From Comamonas sp. GB3 AK4-5 (lineage in GTDB: Bacteria > Pseudomonadota > Gammaproteobacteria > Burkholderiales > Burkholderiaceae_C), in contig NZ_CP166730.1 of the NCBI RefSeq assembly GCF_041320665.1, positions 2,790,001 to 2,854,000 on the forward strand: 64,000 nt of DNA. Direction: 5' to 3'. Made by a program: the position numbers and the translations under genes. Under the pieces are notes generated by a model. The model was not told the origin of the DNA. It worked only from the letters and a program-made list of their open reading frames with translations, and ran no database searches. Shown piece after piece: positions 1 through 49,065 of this stretch (the first letter of the stretch is position 1; the number at the start of each line of letters is the position of its first letter).

Positions 1-977
1 GTGCGCTCGCGCGGCGGCAGCTTGGATTTGCTGCGCAGCGACAGATTGGGCACGAACTGGATGGGCTGCACCGTCGCAACGGACTGTGCGTTGTTTTGGC
101 CGCTAACGCATGCACCATCTGTAGAAGGCGCTTCACTTTTTGCAGCATCTTCCTTGGAGCAGCTTTGGCCCTGGGCCTCTGCCTGCTCGCTGGTGGTCAT
201 ATAGGGGTTGATGTGGGGCTCCACCTCGCCAGGTGCATCCACCGTGCTGGAGTCCACCTCGAACCACCCTTCCTCCGAAGCCCGGCGGAAAAACGCCGTA
301 CCGCGCACATCGGTGATGCTCTCCACCGGCTCGCGCGCGGCAATGCGGTGCGCCACCTCCACCAGGGCACGCTCGGCATTGCCATAGAGCAAGATGTCGC
401 ATTTGCTGTCCACCACCACCGAGCGGCGTACCTTGTCGCTCCAGTAGTCATAGTGGGCAATGCGGCGCAGCGACCCTTCGATGCCGCCCAGCACAATGGG
501 CACATCCTTGTAGGCCTCGCGGCAGCGCTGGCAATAGACAATGGCAGCGCGATCCGGGCGCTTGCCCGCCACATCGCCGGGCGTGTAGGCATCGTCAGAG
601 CGGATTTTTCGATCAGCCGTGTAACGGTTGATCATGGAATCCATATTGCCCGCCGTCACCCCCCAAAACAGATTGGGCTTGCCCAGGGCCTTGAAGGCCT
701 CGGCGCTGTGCCAGTCCGGCTGGGCAATGATGCCCACGCGAAAGCCCTGGGCCTCCAGCACACGGCCGATCACGGCCATGCCAAAGCTGGGGTGGTCCAC
801 ATAGGCATCGCCTGTGACCAGAATCACATCGCAGCTGTCCCAGCCCAGCTGGTCCATCTCCGCCCGGCTCATAGGCAGGAACGGCGCCGGACCAAAGCGC
901 TTGGCCCAGTACGGTTTGTAGCTGGTCAGCGGTTTGGCCGCGCGTTCAAAGAAGGAAACGTCGATGGGGGCATTCAT
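1..977 (-). CDS. ygiQ: YgiQ family radical SAM protein, N-terminal part (runs off the left edge)
   Basis: The reverse strand reads [20 protein letters not shown] and continues open to the window edge (325 codons visible). Segments such as [20 protein letters not shown] and [20 protein letters not shown] are characteristic of the N-terminal domain of YgiQ (UPF0313) proteins. In this family the radical-SAM CxxxCxxC cluster lies further downstream, so it is outside the window; the CQRC near residue 175 is not that motif. Residues about 275-315 form a Ser/Gln/Ala-rich low-complexity stretch, probably a flexible insert. The start ATG at 977 fits homologues, with no upstream gene on this strand. 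The substrate of the family is not established. Confidence 0.9.
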
Positions 978-1268
978 GGGTGAATGGCTGCTAGAAGGCA
1001 AAGAACCGGGCAGTGTACGTTTGCATGCACACCATTGCTGCTGTGGGTGTATCCGTGGAGCGGCCTGGGCCTGCTTTGGGGTCTGCTTTCGCGGCATACA
1101 CAACAGATACAACTCCATGCCTACTTTCAACACCAGGCAGTCACAACATCCTTGCCAACATGGGCTTCGACGGCCATCAAAGGCCAGAATCCCCCTTTTT
1201 TCCCGGCTTTAGCAACGTAACATCCAATCTACATTTCCCTCACTGTTTTGTTTGTCAGGGAGATGGTT

Positions 1269-1490
1269 ATGGACATTTCATTCGCCGCCGCCGTTCGCAA
1301 TGCCAGCAATGCCTGGGCACAAGGCCGTACCACGGATGCAGTGACCATGGCCGAGCTCACCAAGCGCCAACTGGGCAACCAGTCTCCCGCCCAGTTGACC
1401 GGACAGCTCTCGGCCTCCCAGTTGGCCGTGCTGCAACCCGAGTTGGCCCGCTATGGCCAACTGGGCACCAAACTCAATCTGTATGCCTGA
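1269..1490 (+). CDS. Small hypothetical protein (73 aa)
   Basis: A short frame reads MDISFAAAVRNASNAWAQGR and ends NLYA. I chose the ATG at 1269 because the purine-rich AGGGAG at 1257-1262 lies at normal ribosome-binding distance from it but directly abuts the ATG at 1263. The protein is Gln/Leu/Ala-rich, with no signal peptide, membrane segment or recognised domain. It lies about 100 bases upstream of an XRE regulator on the same strand and may share its transcript. I do not recognise the family. Confidence 0.5.
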   Translation: MDISFAAAVRNASNAWAQGRTTDAVTMAELTKRQLGNQSPAQLTGQLSASQLAVLQPELARYGQLGTKLNLYA

Positions 1491-1589
1491 GCACTGCACC
1501 CGCAGTTGCCGCACGCACTGCGACGCATGGCACGCCAGACACCCAGGCTGGCGACTACAGTGACCGCCCCACTCCACCACCGCACAGCT

Positions 1590-1892
1590 ATGTCAGACAG
1601 CAGCACCTCTCAGGCTTCGGATACCTTGACCTCCATCACTCCCCTGGTGGCCACCCTGGCGCAGGCACGCAAGCTTCAGCAGATGACGCAGGCAGAGCTG
1701 GCCAGCCAGGCCGGACTGTCCCGCATGACCGTGCAACGCCTGGAAAGCAATGGCCTGGATCCACGCCTTTCCACCCTGAATGAAATGGCCCGGGTACTGG
1801 GCTATGTGCTGCTGGCCGTTCCGCAAAACTCGGAAGGCTTGGTTCTGCGGGCACTCCAGCAACACGCTGCCGCCTCGGCGCCAACGCTGTAG
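1590..1892 (+). CDS. XRE-family helix-turn-helix transcriptional regulator (100 aa)
   Basis: The protein carries one Cro/CI-type helix-turn-helix: ARKLQQMTQAELASQAGLSR followed by MTVQRLESNGLDPRLSTLNE, where recognition-helix and capping positions fit the XRE family. An N-terminal 25-residue Ser/Thr-rich tail precedes it. The ATG at 1590 (MSDSSTSQ) is preferred because the upstream in-frame extension is Arg/Pro-rich and unlike the family. Similar single-domain proteins act as autoregulators or as antitoxin subunits of HipBA-type modules, but no kinase toxin gene follows. A strong terminator comes directly after the gene. Confidence 0.8.
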   Translation: MSDSSTSQASDTLTSITPLVATLAQARKLQQMTQAELASQAGLSRMTVQRLESNGLDPRLSTLNEMARVLGYVLLAVPQNSEGLVLRALQQHAAASAPTL

Positions 1893-1914
1893 CCACAGCC
1901 ATACCCCATATCCA

Positions 1915-1945
1915 GCGCACGGTGACTACACCGTGCGCTTTTTTC
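1915..1945 (+). terminator. Rho-independent terminator after the XRE gene
   Basis: A perfect 10-bp stem GCGCACGGTG / CACCGTGCGC closes a 4-nt ACTA loop and is followed by six T residues. It lies 23 bases after the XRE stop codon. Confidence 0.9.
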
Positions 1946-2043
1946 GTTTTGGCCTTACATGCCATTTCCTGCCGGGAATGGCTGCTGCACCTGGAAAGCG
2001 CGGGCAGTTGTGCTGGATCAGATGCGCATCAAACTCAGCACTC

Positions 2044-2074
2044 AATGTAAATTTATTTACCTTTTATTTACATT
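2044..2074. promoter_or_regulatory. Operator-like inverted and direct repeats
   Basis: Arms AATGTAAAT (2044-2052) and ATTTACATT (2066-2074) form a perfect 9-bp inverted repeat. Overlapping it, TTTATTTAC occurs twice (2052-2060 and 2063-2071), 11 bases apart, which puts both copies on one face of the helix. The site is far more AT-rich than its surroundings and lies 56 bases upstream of the hypothetical gene at 2130. The layout suits a dimeric repressor, conceivably the neighbouring XRE protein; that link is inference. Confidence 0.5.
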
Positions 2075-2129
2075 TGACCGGTGTGCGACACAGAACAATT
2101 CCACCCGAGAACACTATAGATACAAAGCC

Positions 2130-2504
2130 ATGCGCTCCACCTTCGAGACCCGGCTGGTCACCTTGCTGAACAAACTGGAAGCCGCACCCCTATGCGGCAA
2201 TGCCGACGCCGCTTTCGCACTGTTTCATGCAGCCTGGCTGGCCACCAACGAAGCCCACAAAAGCCCTCCCGCACTGCTGGCGCATTGGCGCAGCCAGCGC
2301 CTGTGCTCCGAGCATGGCTGGCAAGACCTGCACACCCAGGCAGCCCATCTGAGCTTTGCCGAGTCCCCCAACATCCGCGTGTATCTGCACGCTGATGGCG
2401 GTATCGTCATCCAGCGCATGGCGCCTGCCTGCGGCAGCATCCTCTGCGCCAAACTTGGACAAGCTCGCATGGAGCTGGCCGCTGTGCCTGAATTCGTGCG
2501 CTAA
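2130..2504 (+). CDS. Hypothetical protein (124 aa)
   Basis: The frame reads MRSTFETRLVTLLNKLEAAP and ends MELAAVPEFVR. It is predicted soluble and mostly helical, with four Cys and no signal peptide or membrane segment; I do not recognise the family. The ATG at 2130 was chosen because codons upstream belong to the AT-rich operator-like region. The TAA stop (2502-2504) is exactly the target site at which the following IS element inserted. The target duplication is TAA, so the stop codon survives and the protein is probably unchanged. Confidence 0.55.
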   Translation: MRSTFETRLVTLLNKLEAAPLCGNADAAFALFHAAWLATNEAHKSPPALLAHWRSQRLCSEHGWQDLHTQAAHLSFAESPNIRVYLHADGGIVIQRMAPACGSILCAKLGQARMELAAVPEFVR

Positions 2505-3337
2505 GAACGTGTTCAAAGTCTCCTGAGCAAGAGCCCCAAGAACGCCAGATGGACGAACTGCAAGCTGGTGTTGAGCCATCGCTCGCAGTTCTTCCACAAC
2601 CTCCTGTTCTTCTCTAGCCAGGCGAGGCTGCGCTCGACGATCCAGCGCTTGGGCATGATCTTGAAGCTGTGCATCTCGCTTCTCTTGGCGATTTGCACCG
2701 TGACGTGCCCGCCCAAAATCTCCTACCCCCCTTGCGTGAAGGGCTGACCCACGTAGCCGCTGTCGCACAGCACGCCTTGCACTCGGCCCAACGTCCGCTT
2801 ACAGCGCTGCAGGGCACCTTTGCGGTCCGTTACCTCGGCCGTGGTCACCGCAATGGCATGTGGCAGCCCCTGGGTGTCCACCGCAATATACCGCTTGATC
2901 CCACAGACCTTCTTGCCAGCGTCATAGCCCTTCAGCCCCGCCGTGTCCGTGTTCTTCACGCTCTGCGCGTCCACGATCAAGAACGCGCTGCATGCGTTGC
3001 GCCCCAGTTTCTCGCGGGCCGCGCCAACCTGATTTTTTTAAAGCCTGCTCCAGCAGGCTGCCACCCTCGCGGGACTCGCTCCAGATCGCCCAGTACGAAT
3101 GCACCGTGCGCCACTTGGGAAAGTCGCTGGGCAGCGCTCGCCACTGGCAGCCCGTGCGCAGCAGATACAGCACGGCGCAGAACACCTAGTAAAGCTCCAC
3201 CTTGCGTGGGGGCGTCCTTTTGTGCGCACTCTCCAGCATTGGCCGGATCACTTCGAACTGCTCACGCTTGATATCGCTGGGGTAGCCTTTTCTCATCCTG
3301 CGAGCTTCTCACATCTGGCGAGACTTTGAACACGTTC
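2505..3337 (-). mobile_element. IS5-family insertion sequence (IS427-like), 833 bp, decayed
   Basis: Perfect 18-bp terminal inverted repeats lie at 2505-2522 (GAACGTGTTCAAAGTCTC) and 3320-3337. They are flanked by a direct duplication TAA at 2502-2504 and 3338-3340. A 3-bp TNA target duplication, a length near 830 bp and a DDE transposase resembling IS427-group proteins all fit the IS5 family. The single transposase gene runs on the minus strand and is interrupted. Both ends are intact, so the element could still be moved in trans by an active relative. Confidence 0.92.
2513..3296 (-). pseudogene. IS5-family transposase, disrupted by two TAG codons and a frame change
   Basis: Translation begins MRKGYPSDIKREQFEVIRPM at 3296. 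An in-frame TAG at 3188-3186 interrupts [18 protein letters not shown], where relatives usually have Asp. A run of seven A residues (plus-strand T run near 3034) then separates the first frame from the frame encoding [21 protein letters not shown] second TAG at 2725-2723 interrupts QPFTQGG*EILGGHVTVQIA, before the C-terminal KRWIVERSLAWLEK block. The homopolymer shift could be programmed slippage as in some IS5 relatives, but the two stops argue for a dead gene. The final stop lies in the left terminal repeat. Confidence 0.88.
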
Positions 3338-43249: not shown

Positions 43250-44686
43250 CTAACGTCCTTGGCCGGCCTGCCAAGCCTTCCACTCACCAGGCCGCAGACC
43301 ATAGCGCGCCAACACGCCCTCGTGCAGGCGGCGCAGCTCATCCAGAATCAAGGCCTTGAGCTCGGCTCGCAGAGCCGGTGACGCCTGCTGTACGGCCTGC
43401 TCCACCAGTGCGATAGCGTCAGCCCCCGGCTGCTGGACCACGGTACGCACCGTGTCTTTGATCAGCGCTCGATAGCCCAGGCGCAACGGATCGGGCTCGG
43501 CCAGGGTCTGGCGAATGGCCGTGTACTCCTGCGTGCTGCGCTCATAGGCCCAGATGAACCAATCGCGCAGCAGCTCCACCCGGCCCATTTCATACACACC
43601 CAGCATCGCCTGGGCGTAGCTGTCCACCGGCACACCCACAAAGGTCAGCGGCGCCAGATTGGCGCGAAACAGCGGCGCATTGGCGGCCAGGCGCGAAACG
43701 CGCTTGTTGATATCGGCAAAGGGCTGCAGATAGGGCAGATGCACCATCATGAAAAACGCCTGCTCAAACGGATCGGCAATGGCGTTGACCTTTGCCAGCA
43801 CCAGGCCCAGCAATTCATCCAGCACCTGCGGCGCACCAATGGGGCGGTAAACGCTGAGCCCAATATCCACCACATGCTGACGCACGCGGCCTTCGTCGGC
43901 AGGGTTGGGCAGCAGGTTTTCCGCCAGCGCGGCGTGCAGATTCATCAGCAGATAGCGGCGCCACAACGGTGCGCCCGGCTGCAGCTGGGCGATGCTGTCC
44001 ACCAGCAGCTCGATGGCGGCCTTGTGGTTCAGGATCATCTGCGTCTCCACCTGCCCCTTGCCCTGAGCGGCCGCGCCCTCTTCGATCAGCCTGCGCGTGT
44101 CCAGCCGCGAATAGGTATTGCCCTCCATATGGCTGGAGGCCCAGGACAGATCAATCAGCAGCCGGTTCAACACCGCACGGCTGTAGGTGCCTGCGGGTGC
44201 TGTGGCATCTGCTGTACGCCCCTGGGCATGCAACTGGCGGCGCACGGTTTCGGGCAGATAAAAGCTGTGATTGGGCTGATAGCTCTCCAGCAAATCGCGC
44301 TGGTAACCCACCGGCGCGCGCTGCGCCAAGGGCTGCTGCACATAGGCACGCACCTCCTGCGCATCGGGGGCCAGCAACAAGGCCGTTGCGGCCTGCGCCC
44401 AGCCCGCCTGCGGCTCCTCCACCGCAGCGAAAGCGGGCACGGCCGCTGCCTGGTATTGGGGCCTGGCCAGATAACGCCGCCCCCTGCCCTCGCCCTGGGC
44501 CGCAATCCAGCCTTCGCTCACCCATTGCGCCAACCAGCGCTGGGCCGTGCGGCGCGATAGCACTGGAAATTGCGCCATTAATTGCGCCACAGCCACGCCC
44601 TTGGGGGCGGCATTTTGCACTGCCCGCAACAGCGCTTCCTCCTCTAAAGAAAGGCTGCTTTCGAGCTTGATGGGGCTTGCGAACAT
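43250..44686 (-). CDS. Fic-family protein with degenerate active-site motif (478 aa)
   Basis: An N-terminal winged-helix region (VAVAQLMAQFPVLSRRTAQR) is followed by a Fic domain. The inhibitory helix motif SSHMEG (184-189) matches the S/TxxxE(G/N) class with the inhibitor on the N-terminal side. The active-site loop reads HLPYLQPFADINKRVSRLAA. At the catalytic His position of HPFxxGNxR there is Gln321, and one Gly is Ile. AMP transfer may therefore be lost or altered. The gene is autonomous, with an inverted repeat upstream. Confidence 0.82.
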   Translation of the reverse strand: MFASPIKLESSLSLEEEALLRAVQNAAPKGVAVAQLMAQFPVLSRRTAQRWLAQWVSEGWIAAQGEGRGRRYLARPQYQAAAVPAFAAVEEPQAGWAQAATALLLAPDAQEVRAYVQQPLAQRAPVGYQRDLLESYQPNHSFYLPETVRRQLHAQGRTADATAPAGTYSRAVLNRLLIDLSWASSHMEGNTYSRLDTRRLIEEGAAAQGKGQVETQMILNHKAAIELLVDSIAQLQPGAPLWRRYLLMNLHAALAENLLPNPADEGRVRQHVVDIGLSVYRPIGAPQVLDELLGLVLAKVNAIADPFEQAFFMMVHLPYLQPFADINKRVSRLAANAPLFRANLAPLTFVGVPVDSYAQAMLGVYEMGRVELLRDWFIWAYERSTQEYTAIRQTLAEPDPLRLGYRALIKDTVRTVVQQPGADAIALVEQAVQQASPALRAELKALILDELRRLHEGVLARYGLRPGEWKAWQAGQGR

Positions 44687-44717
44687 GGTGGCGCGTTGAT
44701 GGATGGTGTGGCGCTTA

Positions 44718-44744
44718 TTTTGGCGCGATTTTAATCAATGCGCC
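44718..44744. promoter_or_regulatory. Inverted repeat upstream of the first fic gene
   Basis: TTGGCGC (44718-44724) and GCGCCAA (44738-44744) are perfect 7-bp arms with a 13-base AT-rich spacer, 32 bases before the fic start. Another GGCGC copy lies between this site and the gene. Candidate operator, possibly for the winged helix of the Fic protein itself. Confidence 0.45.
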
Positions 44745-44910
44745 AAGTTCCGAGATGGCTGCTGACTAGCGGTCTAGCAGATCGGTATGGGGGAACGTGT
44801 CGAGGGCGGTCTGTCTGCTTCAGGCATCAAACTAGCCACCGGAGCATATGCAGCGAGCATTGGTCGCTATCAAAAGAGAATCTACTTTCCCTTCCTTGAC
44901 CTCAACTTCA

Positions 44911-44975
44911 TTACCGATCGGGAAATTTTCAAAGAAAAAGCAGGCAAAGCTTGAAATATTTACCGATCGGGAATT
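44911..44975. promoter_or_regulatory. Two operator-like repeats just past the hipB-like gene
   Basis: TTACCGATCGGGAA occurs at 44911-44924 and again at 44960-44973, each with the palindromic core CCGATCGG. Related to the dyad at 45284-45303 upstream of the same gene. They lie immediately after its stop codon region, where a hipA gene would normally begin. Confidence 0.5.
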
Positions 44976-44983
44976 CCAAGCAG

Positions 44984-45265
44984 TTATGCGCCATGGCGTT
45001 TGCCCTTCGCTGTCGCTACGGCCTGGCCTACAGCGTTTTCGGGCACAGCACCCGACAAACCCGCCAGCTGCAGCTCGCCCCCCAGAGCATCAATCACCCG
45101 CAGCACATGCTCCAGCCGCACCGTGGGCTTGCCCACCTCCAAGTCCACGATAAAACGCGTGCCCACGCCAGCGGCCAACGCCAGTTGTGGCTGGGTCAGG
45201 CGCAGTTGTTTGCGGGCGCTACGCAAAGCTGTGCCGAGTTGGTCGGTGGTGCGGATGGTGGACAT
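44984..45265 (-). CDS. HipB-like XRE transcriptional regulator (y4mF type), without HipA
   Basis: A 93-residue protein with the helix-turn-helix ALRSARKQLRLTQPQLALAA and GVGTRFIVDLEVGKPTVRLE, typical of HipB/y4mF antitoxin regulators, which bind palindromic operators and neutralise a HipA-type kinase. ATG 45265 (MSTIRTTDQLG) is chosen; the frame extends to 45310. A TTCCCG/CGGGAA dyad lies just upstream. No HipA kinase gene follows on this strand; the space up to the fic gene is only 297 bases, so the toxin has been lost or never accompanied it. Confidence 0.82.
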   Translation of the reverse strand: MSTIRTTDQLGTALRSARKQLRLTQPQLALAAGVGTRFIVDLEVGKPTVRLEHVLRVIDALGGELQLAGLSGAVPENAVGQAVATAKGKRHGA

Positions 45266-45283
45266 GGTGTGGCTGCGTTTGAA

Positions 45284-45303
45284 ATTCCCGTTCGGGAAAT
45301 TAT
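45284..45303. promoter_or_regulatory. HipB-type operator dyad upstream of the hipB-like gene
   Basis: AATTCCCGTTCGGGAAATT contains the near-perfect palindrome TTCCCG-TT-CGGGAA, 19-38 bases before the hipB-like start, where a repressor would overlap the promoter. Confidence 0.55.
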
Positions 45304-45502
45304 GATGCATAACACCGTGTCTTTGATCAAGGCACGATGCGTCAAGCGCATCGTGTCAGGCTCGGCACGGACATGAAAAGCGGCAGTGTATTTCTGCGTA
45401 CTATGCCCAGAGAGCAGGGCTTATGCATAGGTATTAACCGGCACACCAGAAAACCCTGCGTAGCTGGATTGGTATGAAACAACAACACATTGGCAATGTT
45501 TC

Positions 45503-45519
45503 GCTATCAAATGAATAGC
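45503..45519. repeat. Dispersed intergenic motif GCTATCAAA (fullest copy) and its relatives
   Basis: GCTATCAAATGAATAGC is a short inverted repeat. The 9-mer GCTATCAAA also occurs at 4153, 12665, 44866 and 49229, always between genes, and a variant dyad GCTATC-AGCAC-GATAGC lies at 61204-61220. I recall similar AT-rich dyads as frequent intergenic motifs in Comamonadaceae. Confidence 0.55.
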
Positions 45520-45689
45520 AAAAAAGATCCAGCTGATGGCATCGCTGCATTGCGAAATAAAACCGGAAGTACTCACTCTCAGATTATTTCTTTTATACAG
45601 GTTCTTTATATATGGTGCAGCCTGAACAATTTATACGAACTCACCATCCCCCAGAGGATTGCTAACACTCAAATTTTTGTTGCAAATTG

Positions 45690-45712
45690 TTTCAATTGAG
45701 GTACAATTGAAA
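45690..45712. promoter_or_regulatory. Perfect inverted repeat upstream of the ATPase-nuclease operon
   Basis: TTTCAATTG-AGGTA-CAATTGAAA is a perfect 9-bp dyad, 36 bases before the ATPase start codon. It could be an operator or a leader hairpin controlling the operon. Confidence 0.55.
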
Positions 45713-45748
45713 TCATCTCTCACTCCTCTATAAATTCAATATCCAATT

Positions 45749-47008
45749 ATGAAACTAATAGTAGAGAATTTTTCCTGCATAAAGAATACAGAAGTAGACA
45801 TTTCAAGAGTTAACATTCTTATTGGTCCACAGGCGAGCGGGAAAAGCGTATTATCAAAATTAATATATTTTTTCTATTGCATAAAAGATCTTCATTCGGA
45901 ACAAATAAGCTCTGAGAGAAACATCGAGCAATTCTCTACTGCAATCAAAGAAAAATTTATTGCATGGTTCCCTATAATTGCATGGGGAGATGAGAAATTC
46001 AAGATATCTTTTGAATCTAATAAATTTAAAATTACAATTTCTCGTGTGATCTACAAAGGAGAACTAGGAGAAAATCTACGCATAACCTTATCAGAAGGCA
46101 TAAAAAATATTCATACAGAATTAGTGCACTCAGCCAGCCTAATTAATTCTGAAATAGAAAAAAATGACGATTTCTACATACAATACCAAATACAAAGAAA
46201 GATCAATGAAGAAATACAAAAAAGATATTCAGAAATATTTGGCGAAGATTATATCGATAGCGTAACCTACATACCCGCAGGCAGATCATTTTTCACAAAC
46301 CTGGGAAGAGCTCTAATGGCATTTGAAAGAGCCAATATGCTTGATCCAGTCACAGTTGAATTTGGAAGAACTTATAGCAATTTTATCCAGGGCAATGATG
46401 CATTACTTAGATTTATCAGAAAAGATAGCAGTTCACGTTTCTTAACCGACATTATTGGGGGCGATATAATTAATGAAAAGGGTGATTATTATATAAAATC
46501 ACCTGATGGCAGATCAATACCATTTCACTCTTTATCATCTGGACAGCAAGAATTACTTCCACTACTACTAACCTTTGGACTTCTTAGTCGGTATAAAAAT
46601 AACTCTTCTCTCTTTTTCATAGAAGAGCCTGAAGCCCATCTTTTTCCAAATGCGCAGAGTAAAGTCATTGAAGGTCTAGCTGCCTATCTCAATGAAAATA
46701 AGAATAGATCTATATTTATTACAACCCATAGCCCTTATGTCCTTTCAAAAATAAATAACCTAATTAAAGCAGGTCTTATTGAAAGAACAAGTAAAAGCAA
46801 GGAGCAACTATCCAAACTAGATCAAGTCGTTTCAAAGCAGAAGCGAATAGATCCCTCACACATTCGGGCATATTGCATTGAAGATGGTGTAGTAAGCAGC
46901 ATCATCGATGATGACACAAAATTAATAAATGCCGATTATCTAGATGAGATATCCAATCAAATTGGGAATCAATTCAGCGATCTATTAAATATTCAATACA
47001 CATATTGA
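45749..47008 (+). CDS. AAA15-type ATPase of a candidate defence operon (419 aa)
   Basis: An SMC/OLD-like ATPase with Walker A GPQASGKS (26-33), an ABC-type signature LSSGQQELLPLLL (262-274), Walker B SLFFIEEPEAHLF (287-299) and the switch His in TTHSPYVLSK (325-334). A charged helical insert (about 110-165) separates the halves. The C-terminal 80 residues lack the TOPRIM nuclease of OLD/GajA proteins. DNA is strongly AT-rich versus the genome. The next gene starts one base after its stop, giving an ATPase plus nuclease-like pair as in several anti-phage systems. The start has no strong ribosome site. Confidence 0.85.
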   Translation: MKLIVENFSCIKNTEVDISRVNILIGPQASGKSVLSKLIYFFYCIKDLHSEQISSERNIEQFSTAIKEKFIAWFPIIAWGDEKFKISFESNKFKITISRVIYKGELGENLRITLSEGIKNIHTELVHSASLINSEIEKNDDFYIQYQIQRKINEEIQKRYSEIFGEDYIDSVTYIPAGRSFFTNLGRALMAFERANMLDPVTVEFGRTYSNFIQGNDALLRFIRKDSSSRFLTDIIGGDIINEKGDYYIKSPDGRSIPFHSLSSGQQELLPLLLTFGLLSRYKNNSSLFFIEEPEAHLFPNAQSKVIEGLAAYLNENKNRSIFITTHSPYVLSKINNLIKAGLIERTSKSKEQLSKLDQVVSKQKRIDPSHIRAYCIEDGVVSSIIDDDTKLINADYLDEISNQIGNQFSDLLNIQYTY

Positions 47009-47009
47009 G

Positions 47010-47471
47010 ATGTCTGCATTAATAAAACAAACACTTATTAATAAAAACTCTGGTCATGCTAACAGAAAAGAGTCTCTCATTAAAATTCATGACCAGAAAA
47101 GTTCATCCTTATTCATAAAAAACAACCAGCCCGCATCAACCTTAATAGAATTTTTTTATGATGGGAAAATCGTAAAAAACGTCATTGCTTGCGACAGAAT
47201 ATTAATCTGCGATCAATCTACAAACATCTCAGCAGTAGAGTTAAAAGGATCAGATCTTCGCCATGCTATGGAACAATTAGAAGAGACTTTCAAAAGAGAG
47301 AATATAAAGAGTAGCACATCCAAAAAAACTGCTGTAATTGTGTATAGCCAAAGCCCTTCAAATATTAGTACTGCAAAGCAAAATTTTGCAGAAAAGATGT
47401 TTAAAACATATAAAGCACGAGTTTTTTATTGCAAAAGTGGAAGCAATGTTAGCTATTCAGAAATTTTATAA
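47010..47471 (+). CDS. Small PD-(D/E)XK-nuclease-like protein, partner of the AAA ATPase (153 aa)
   Basis: I do not recognise a named family. The core reads IACDRILICDQSTNISAVEL followed by KGSDLRHAMEQLEETF. Asp62 or Asp68, Glu77-Leu-Lys79 and Gln89 fit the D...ExK...Q pattern of PD-(D/E)XK endonucleases, with a hydrophobic strand before each acidic residue as expected. The reading is based on pattern only. Located one base after the ATPase stop and followed by a terminator, it is the second and last gene of the operon. A toxic nuclease effector controlled by the ATPase is the likeliest role. Confidence 0.7.
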   Translation: MSALIKQTLINKNSGHANRKESLIKIHDQKSSSLFIKNNQPASTLIEFFYDGKIVKNVIACDRILICDQSTNISAVELKGSDLRHAMEQLEETFKRENIKSSTSKKTAVIVYSQSPSNISTAKQNFAEKMFKTYKARVFYCKSGSNVSYSEIL

Positions 47472-47551
47472 TTCACTCCATCCATAATTAATGCATCCAA
47501 GATAATTTTCTAAAAATTAAGCATCGATAAACCACCCTTAAAAACCGTAAT

Positions 47552-47583
47552 AAAAAGGCAGTCATGAAGGCTGCCTTTTTTAT
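47552..47583 (+). terminator. Rho-independent terminator of the ATPase-nuclease operon
   Basis: A 10-bp stem AAAAAGGCAG / CTGCCTTTTT with a 9-nt loop and T-rich tail, 80 bases after the nuclease-like gene. Confidence 0.9.
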
Positions 47584-47721
47584 TTATTAACTCAATTACA
47601 TAACAATAAATATTTATACACTTTTATTTTTATACTATCGAAGAATTCCGATGAAATCGACAATTTCAGAAAAAACACTATAACTGTCCCCTAACAGCAA
47701 GAGAAATAAGGCGATACTTCT

Positions 47722-47876
47722 TCACAGGCGAAATATCTGACCAGTCGCCATTTCGACGGCCAGGGATATTTCACCAATCATTTCATCGGCGTGCGTGCCG
47801 CACCATGCCACAGCCCAGGATAGGCCACGGACTTTGGGCTGCAATCAATTAGCAGCTTGATAAAGCCCTTGTCACA
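47722..47876 (-). pseudogene. Remnant of a dihydrolipoyl dehydrogenase (lpd) gene
   Basis: On the minus strand, GFIKLLIDCSPKS, then ILGCGMV in a shifted frame, then CGTHADEMIGEISLAVEM align in order with [16 protein letters not shown] and [17 protein letters not shown] of the intact lpdA at 49292. Nucleotide similarity is obvious over about 60 bases. Two frame changes separate the pieces and an early stop follows, so this is a dead fragment of about 50 codons. It directly abuts the end of the second fic gene. Confidence 0.8.
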
Positions 47877-49065
47877 CATCCGCCTCAGCCTCCGGCCACA
47901 GCCGGGGAAACAAAAACCGCAGCGCATGCTGCGGCAGCCCAAAGCGCACCTTGCCTTGCGGGCTGTCGCTTTTGAGCAGGCCGCGTTTAACCAACGCGCC
48001 CAGCGCATCCGTAGCCATGCGGTCACCCAGGCCCAGCATGGTCTTGAATTCACCACGGGGCATTTCTTCACCGCTCAGGAATAGATAGTGCAAGGGGCGC
48101 AGTGCTTCTTTGCGCACGCCGGTTTTGAGCACGGATGATTCAAATACCAGCGCGGCCTCGATGCGGTCTTTGATGAGGTCGAAGTCCAGCATGCGGGCCA
48201 TGAACTGCAGCTGATCCAGGCAGAGATCGAGCACATAGTCGGCCCAGGCGATCAGTGCCTGCTCGCTCAGATTGCCGCGGCCGTCCAAGTCGCCACGGCG
48301 GGCACTGTCGGCGTCGGCCAGCAAGGCGTAGTAGCGCTCTTGCCCGCGTGCAAAGCCGCGCAGGGGCGACCACAGGCCATTGGTGTAGCCCAGGCTGCTG
48401 AGCAAGGTGTGCGTATGCAGGCGCATGACGCGGCCGTTGCCGTCCATGAATGGGTGAATCCAGCCCAGACGCTGGTGGGCACAGGCCATGGCCACCAGCG
48501 CAGCCTCGCCCCGGCGCACGTTGCCGTAGCGGCTGGCCCAACGCTCCATAAACACAGGCACGCTGGCGGCCGCTGGGGCGATGTGCCGGCCTACGCTGAC
48601 CTCCTTGTCACGCAGCTGGCCGGGCACCACGGTCTGGCCTTCGGCCACATCCCAGTCGGACTCTGGCAAGCGACCAAACAACTCGCGGTGCAGGTCTTGC
48701 ACGCCGGCCTGGCTGTAGAGCGCACGCACGCCCTCCTCACCTTGGTAGCGCTGCTCCAGTGCGGCTTCGGCCTCGATATGCGCCACGGCCAGGCGCTGCT
48801 TGGCTGCCAGTTCTTTGTTGCTGGAGAAATCCTGGGCCAGCGCCAGCTCAATCTCGTGCGGGCGCGTGTGCTGGCCTTCGATGCGGTTGGTGTAGTAGGA
48901 ATTCATGCTGCGCAGCAAGGTGCGCAGTTCGGGCGGCACAGGCTTGCCCACCAGCGATGTGGTAGCACGCACCACATCCCCGGCCTTGGAGAGCAAGGGC
49001 TCTATGTGGGCGTCCGATGGCATCAGGGGTTCGAACTGATGGGCCGATGTGTAGAGCGCTGTCAT
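47872..49065 (-). CDS. Fic-family AMP transferase-like protein with intact active site (397 aa)
   Basis: Fic enzymes transfer AMP or related groups to target hydroxyls. The active-site loop IHPFMDGNGRVMRLHTH is complete (catalytic His204). An inhibitory helix TNRIEG (59-64) indicates autoinhibition. An N-terminal DUF4172-like helical region and a C-terminal winged helix (FLSGEEMPRGEFKTMLGLGD) complete the protein. ATG 49065 is preferred over the frame start at 49083. The end overlaps the lpd remnant. Upstream repeats of GCCAAGTT could be its operator. Confidence 0.88.
   Translation of the reverse strand: MTALYTSAHQFEPLMPSDAHIEPLLSKAGDVVRATTSLVGKPVPPELRTLLRSMNSYYTNRIEGQHTRPHEIELALAQDFSSNKELAAKQRLAVAHIEAEAALEQRYQGEEGVRALYSQAGVQDLHRELFGRLPESDWDVAEGQTVVPGQLRDKEVSVGRHIAPAAASVPVFMERWASRYGNVRRGEAALVAMACAHQRLGWIHPFMDGNGRVMRLHTHTLLSSLGYTNGLWSPLRGFARGQERYYALLADADSARRGDLDGRGNLSEQALIAWADYVLDLCLDQLQFMARMLDFDLIKDRIEAALVFESSVLKTGVRKEALRPLHYLFLSGEEMPRGEFKTMLGLGDRMATDALGALVKRGLLKSDSPQGKVRFGLPQHALRFLFPRLWPEAEADV

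Follow-up and report, generated by a model that had tools for sequence, protein, structure and literature searches.

The window analysed here, a stretch of 64,000 nt from Comamonas sp. GB3 AK4-5 (NZ_CP166730.1, positions 2,790,001 to 2,854,000), contains on its forward strand an operon of two genes, for a sensor driven by ATP and for a small nuclease, which together most likely constitute an anti-phage system. Based on its open reading frame, Pfam matches, conservation, and predicted structure, gene 1 (45749..47008) encodes an ABC/OLD-type ATPase of 419 aa (WonA-like), and based on predicted fold, conservation, and profile alignment, gene 2 (47010..47471) encodes a small PD-(D/E)XK-type nuclease of 153 aa (WonB-like). 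Sequence, predicted fold, and exchange at the locus lend good support to the view that the two genes form an ATPase-nuclease defence module, and we consider it likely that the pair represents an abortive-infection system of the WonAB type. It is a new, divergent relative of WonAB and not a new kind of system; the kind is known and partly tested. Within the genus, the pair is a horizontally acquired cassette. As stated in the first-pass annotation of this DNA, which also gave coordinates, frames, and sizes correctly, both genes are AT-rich, with a GC content of 0.34 (ATPase gene) and 0.32 (small gene) compared to 0.61 for the whole window, and a single base lies between the stop of the former and the start of the latter. 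Motif, fold, profile, and co-occurrence evidence bear out its central claim that an ATPase and a PD-(D/E)XK-type nuclease form a compact module here.

All of the ATPase motifs named in that annotation are present, and most of their positions are invariant in the 53 aligned sequences from which conservation was read. These are the Walker A motif GPQASGKS (residues 26-33, 45824..45847, with G26, G31, K32, and S33 invariant), the ABC signature LSSGQQE (residues 262-268, 46532..46552, with S263, S264, G265, Q267, and E268 invariant), the Walker B motif IEEPEAHLF (residues 291-299), of which the end IEEPE (residues 291-295, 46619..46633) is invariant at E292-E295, and the H-loop TTHS (residues 325-328, 46721..46732, with T326, H327, and S328 invariant), all on the forward strand. 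The ATPase has the motifs needed to build a composite ATP site, and K32, R179, E293, and H327 are all invariant. A C-terminal extension (residues 372-419, 46862..47005, forward strand) shows the conserved pattern ADYLD..S..I..EF..LL in the alignment and is proposed, by likeness to WonA (PMC12137116), to form the nuclease-binding surface; residues 404-408 of the model have a pLDDT under 50. Pfam matches comprise AAA_15, AAA_21, SMC_N (slightly below the cut-off), and a weak nSTAND3, and no TOPRIM match was found in the 419 aa, as the annotation had claimed. The solved structure nearest to the ATPase model is PtuA of Septu, and Rad50-type similarity is seen as well.

Structure prediction of the small protein gave a model (pLDDT 93) that fits a PD-(D/E)XK nuclease. 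Of the nuclease-like pattern previously proposed, D62, E77, K79, and Q89 stand, being invariant in 74/74 and 119/119 sequences, whereas D68 is not conserved: residue 68 is an aspartate in just 12/74 and 10/119 sequences, and D68 therefore lies outside the active site. Together, the two alignments comprise 193 rows, 189 of them distinct (four of the 119 rows repeat a sequence of alignment A2 within the core), and N39, D51, D62, E77, K79, G80, and Q89 are kept in every row. In the profile alignment, D62 (the active-site aspartate of "PD", 47193..47195), E77-L78-K79 (the (D/E)XK motif, 47238..47246), and Q89 (the helix glutamine, 47274..47276), all on the forward strand, coincide with the corresponding residues of HsdR. 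Alignment A2 omits eight of the 77 partner loci introduced below (L011, L031, L049, L061, L065, L069, L089, and L090), which are cut, near-duplicate, or, in case of L011 and L069, interrupted near the N-terminus. The small protein has no family name in Pfam or NCBIfam, and no HNH match was obtained with Pfam. When the partner profile was searched against PDB sequences, 4ic1 was matched at E 0.35 and 7p2y at E 1.1, no match below E 0.001 was found in the viral structure library, and the fold search yielded a NucS-like match.

The pair is almost obligate. In the genome collection, 80 ATPase loci were kept of 520 relatives, and the first-pass annotation had regarded ATPase homologues that never co-occur with the second gene as speaking against its proposal; instead, the partner is located immediately 3' of the ATPase gene in 77/80 loci. 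Of the three loci without a full partner, two are situated at a contig end and one (L054) carries an apparent remnant. The N-terminal frame of the partner is interrupted in L011 and L069, both counted among the 77, and the ATPase frame is interrupted in L083. At the level of the order, the ATPase was detected at 1e-40 in 8/399 genomes, including that of the window, and the partner adjoins in 8/8. A ninth partner (L099) sits after a more distant ATPase, which matches PDC-M29A of PADLOC at 5.8e-37 over nearly its full length; in this locus (188-3311) another AAA ATPase gene, unlike the first, lies after the PDC-M29-type pair. At the level of the genus, the pair occurs in 1/53 genomes, namely in the window's own. 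Named relatives of the ATPase belong to Comamonas, Hydrogenophaga, and Caenimonas. A weak partner match from a different genus within the family (L010, E 0.0027) was dropped, as its 3.3-kb stretch holds no such ATPase. Distances of ATPase and partner correlate over 30 pairs (r 0.75, reached in 0/5000 permutations), for which species history may account.

On viral contigs, of which 80 of 99 relatives found with alignment A3 were kept, 15 ATPases below 1e-40 were identified, 13 with the partner and two without a recognisable one (L205 and L207). In L208 the partner adjoins a weaker ATPase match, and L200-L202 are near-copies of one another. An earlier viral scan using a single sequence gave no match, and tblastn of the ATPase gave partial matches only, in three plasmid and two phage records. 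The pair of L200 is flanked by P2-type replication (gpA) and portal genes, named by eye, and its position presumably is the old/tin position of P2. The occurrence on viral contigs also bears on a housekeeping role in DNA repair, in which a RecF/SMC-like ATPase would act with a nuclease. The similarity of the ATPase to SMC_N and Rad50-type proteins and the NucS-like fold match would fit such a role, but restriction to one genome of the genus and eight of the order, the foreign base composition, and the presence on viral contigs render it highly improbable.

Further evidence for a defence module comes from the chromosomal slot beside lpdA (the names fic, hipB, hipA, and lpdA were assigned by eye from translations). 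On the left, the cargo slot is bordered by a fic-like remnant (45301..45453, reverse strand), detected when the protein encoded at 43250-44686 served as tblastn query (42% over 69 residues), and on the right by a degenerate copy of the lpdA 3' end (47748..47873, reverse strand), which matches lpdA of five relatives in blastn (71-85% over 74-136 columns) and also gave a tblastn match (18 aa at 72%). Eleven relatives, chosen by matching flanks, were surveyed. The one with the best flanks (G760, 91 and 94% identical) holds a different AT-rich pair, consisting of an HEC-01A-like ATPase (2.4e-101) and an HEC-01B-like protein (2.7e-15). Altogether, AT-rich modules with PADLOC matches are situated beside fic/hipB and lpdA in 5/11 relatives, i.e., HEC-01-like in G760, NsnB-like in G754, G747, and G745, and NsnA-like in G774. 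The slot of G761 (L166 3706-7983) contains a 1425-aa protein without a PADLOC match at 1e-5. No AT-rich cargo was seen in 5/11 relatives, and in G767 only about 74 bp separate hipB from the lpdA-side sequence. Of 12 cargo ORFs, 10 were scanned with PADLOC (one ORF each in L167 and L170 was left out), and 8/10 match at 1e-5, with AAA ATPases matching many PADLOC models. A partial lpdA 3' end borders the cargo in the window, G754, G761, and G745. Given the other defence-like modules found in the same slot of relatives, it seems that defence-like cassettes are exchanged at this site.

The slot modules of the relatives, located beside lpdA, are AT-rich, comprise two or three genes, and mostly consist of an AAA ATPase and a partner (L161 4017-6039, L164 1158-4480, L167 4379-6638, L168 3023-5927, and L170 3009-4884); the 350-aa partner of L168 has no PADLOC match at 1e-5. 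The partial lpdA ends in the three other genus genomes are located at L164 4601-4696, L166 8059-8199, and L168 2775-2858. In the window (43250-45310), a hipB-like gene adjoins the Fic-like gene. In several relatives, this hipB is followed by a hipA-like gene, which suggests a loss of hipA in the window.

The survey of neighbouring genes was negative, with no clear enrichment of defence genes observed near 40 loci compared to 40 control regions. It used 268 of the 312 ORFs (at most 1200 aa long) that lie no further than 6 kb from the loci, and 268 of the 383 ORFs in the control regions, which were taken from the same genomes. At 1e-20, 7 and 80 PADLOC families were matched in the foreground batches and 32 and 69 in the control batches. 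These counts are coarse because one protein can match several families, no more than 25 families are listed per batch, and the controls included apparent type I-F CRISPR and Dnd genes. The survey gives no support to a general defence-island expectation; the enrichment of homologous pairs in defence islands anticipated earlier was seen at the lpdA slot only.

Upstream of the operon, a repeat search placed the 9-bp dyad reported previously at 45690-45698 / 45704-45712. It is perfect, has a gap of 5 nt, and may possibly be an operator or part of a promoter. At the place of the terminator claimed for the operon, a terminator-like hairpin is present at 47552..47580 (forward strand), but such hairpins are no commoner in the operon region than in shuffled sequence (1 versus a mean of 1.6, sd 1.5). 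No Rfam family reached the gathering threshold in 45000-48200 and thus no catalogued RNA, e.g., a retron RNA, was recognised there.

A possible mode of action is provided by WonAB. According to Adams et al. 2025 (PMC12137116), this system consists of an ABC ATPase of the OLD type and a PD-(D/E)XK nuclease, which are both needed and act by abortive infection. In the model given there, WonB is bound by the dimerised C-terminal extensions of WonA, and overproduction of WonB is toxic only with active WonA. The authors conclude that WonB halts translation and that genomic DNA is not degraded. By analogy, the ATPase dimer of the window would respond to a sign that appears late in phage infection, the C-terminal extension of the ATPase (residues 372-419) would hold and license the nuclease, and upon ATP-dependent activation the nuclease would act on a host component. 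As with WonB, translation might then stop, probably via RNA cleavage, and the infected cell would yield no phage. Phage protection, the trigger, and RNA or DNA as the target of the pair are in this sense what we infer.

In a Septu-like direct restriction, by contrast, an ATPase-nuclease complex would recognise and cut phage DNA without shutdown of the host. In case of the relative WonAB, phage DNA replication continues (2.7-fold lower), the chromosome stays intact on WonB overproduction, and translation is arrested (PMC12137116), so that we regard direct restriction as unlikely. Even less probable is a plain toxin-antitoxin system, in which the ATPase would neutralise the nuclease and the pair would persist by addiction, with no anti-phage role. 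Tight linkage of two acquired genes and their location between fic-like and hipB-like genes (by eye) would agree with this, but the ATPase is a large protein compared to antitoxins, its catalytic motifs are invariant, and in WonAB the ATPase does not neutralise the nuclease but is required for its toxicity (PMC12137116). Next to the preferred assignment to WonAB-type abortive infection, it is tempting to speculate that the pair represents a branch of the WonAB superfamily that differs in function, responds to a trigger of its own, and perhaps targets DNA instead of a translation RNA, and that the lpdA slot swaps ATPase-effector cassettes together with duplicated lpdA ends; we hold this combination to be conceivable, if doubtful.

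With these observations, a defence family that was tested recently gains a branch of which the PADLOC models used recognise only one half, the ATPase being matched and the nuclease of the window not. The alignment with its seven invariant residues would allow such pairs to be found and names residues for loss-of-function tests, and further modules may be sought in the lpdA-side slot within the genus.

Compared to known systems, the pair resembles Septu in combining an ATPase, with PtuA as the closest solved fold, and a small nuclease. It differs in the nuclease itself, since PtuB is an HNH nuclease (according to PDB titles) and the window partner is predicted to be PD-(D/E)XK-like. DUF4435 is associated with AriB of PARIS. 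AriB carries a TOPRIM domain, and no such partner is present in the window. In OLD and Gabija, TOPRIM is fused to the ATPase, in contrast to the 419-aa ATPase without such a match. With PDC-M29 of PADLOC-DB, the pair shares its kind. The window ATPase matches PDC-M29A at 3.8e-30 in two stretches (best 278-416), with AriA scoring slightly better (2.1e-30), and the small protein has no PDC-M29B match up to E 10; in the partner family, 52/74 sequences match PDC-M29B at E 0.1 or better (best 1.4e-13). The name PDC-M29 was not found in the literature searched, and PDCs are described as unvalidated in PMC12988326.

With WonAB, the pair shares a two-gene operon with the ATPase first, an OLD-type ABC ATPase, and a PD-(D/E)XK core in the small partner; unlike WonAB, it occupies a chromosomal slot and not the WASA-1 prophage. 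Protection is lost in WonA K34A, R182A, E300A, and H333A and in WonB K71A (PMC12137116), to which K32, R179, E293, H327, and K79 of the window would be equivalent. For WonA, this equivalence was judged by motif and by spacing (147/114/34 versus 148/118/33), using published residue numbers. L200, the viral-contig relative with WonAB-like residue numbers, shows 32% ATPase identity and 34% over 74 partner residues. In the ATPase tree, the window and 34 other loci form a group (support 0.83) that is separate from the L200 clade (support 0.99). The trees lack WonAB and have long branches, and the partner tree, which places L199 and not the ATPase-tree neighbours beside the window, is unresolved, so just the ATPase grouping was used, and weakly. 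Judging from these sequences, the pair probably belongs to another branch than WonAB. WonAB was related by its authors to "OLD-ABC ATPase + Novel REase" operons, present in 0.96% of genomes (PMC12137116) and credited to Krishnan et al. 2020 (PMC12137116, PMC12409358), which by the description of Adams et al. have the same architecture as the window pair. The first-pass view of the small partner, as not matching the HNH, TOPRIM, or DUF4435 partners, is to be corrected in that its kind is known from WonB/"Novel REase" (PMC12137116) and PDC-M29.
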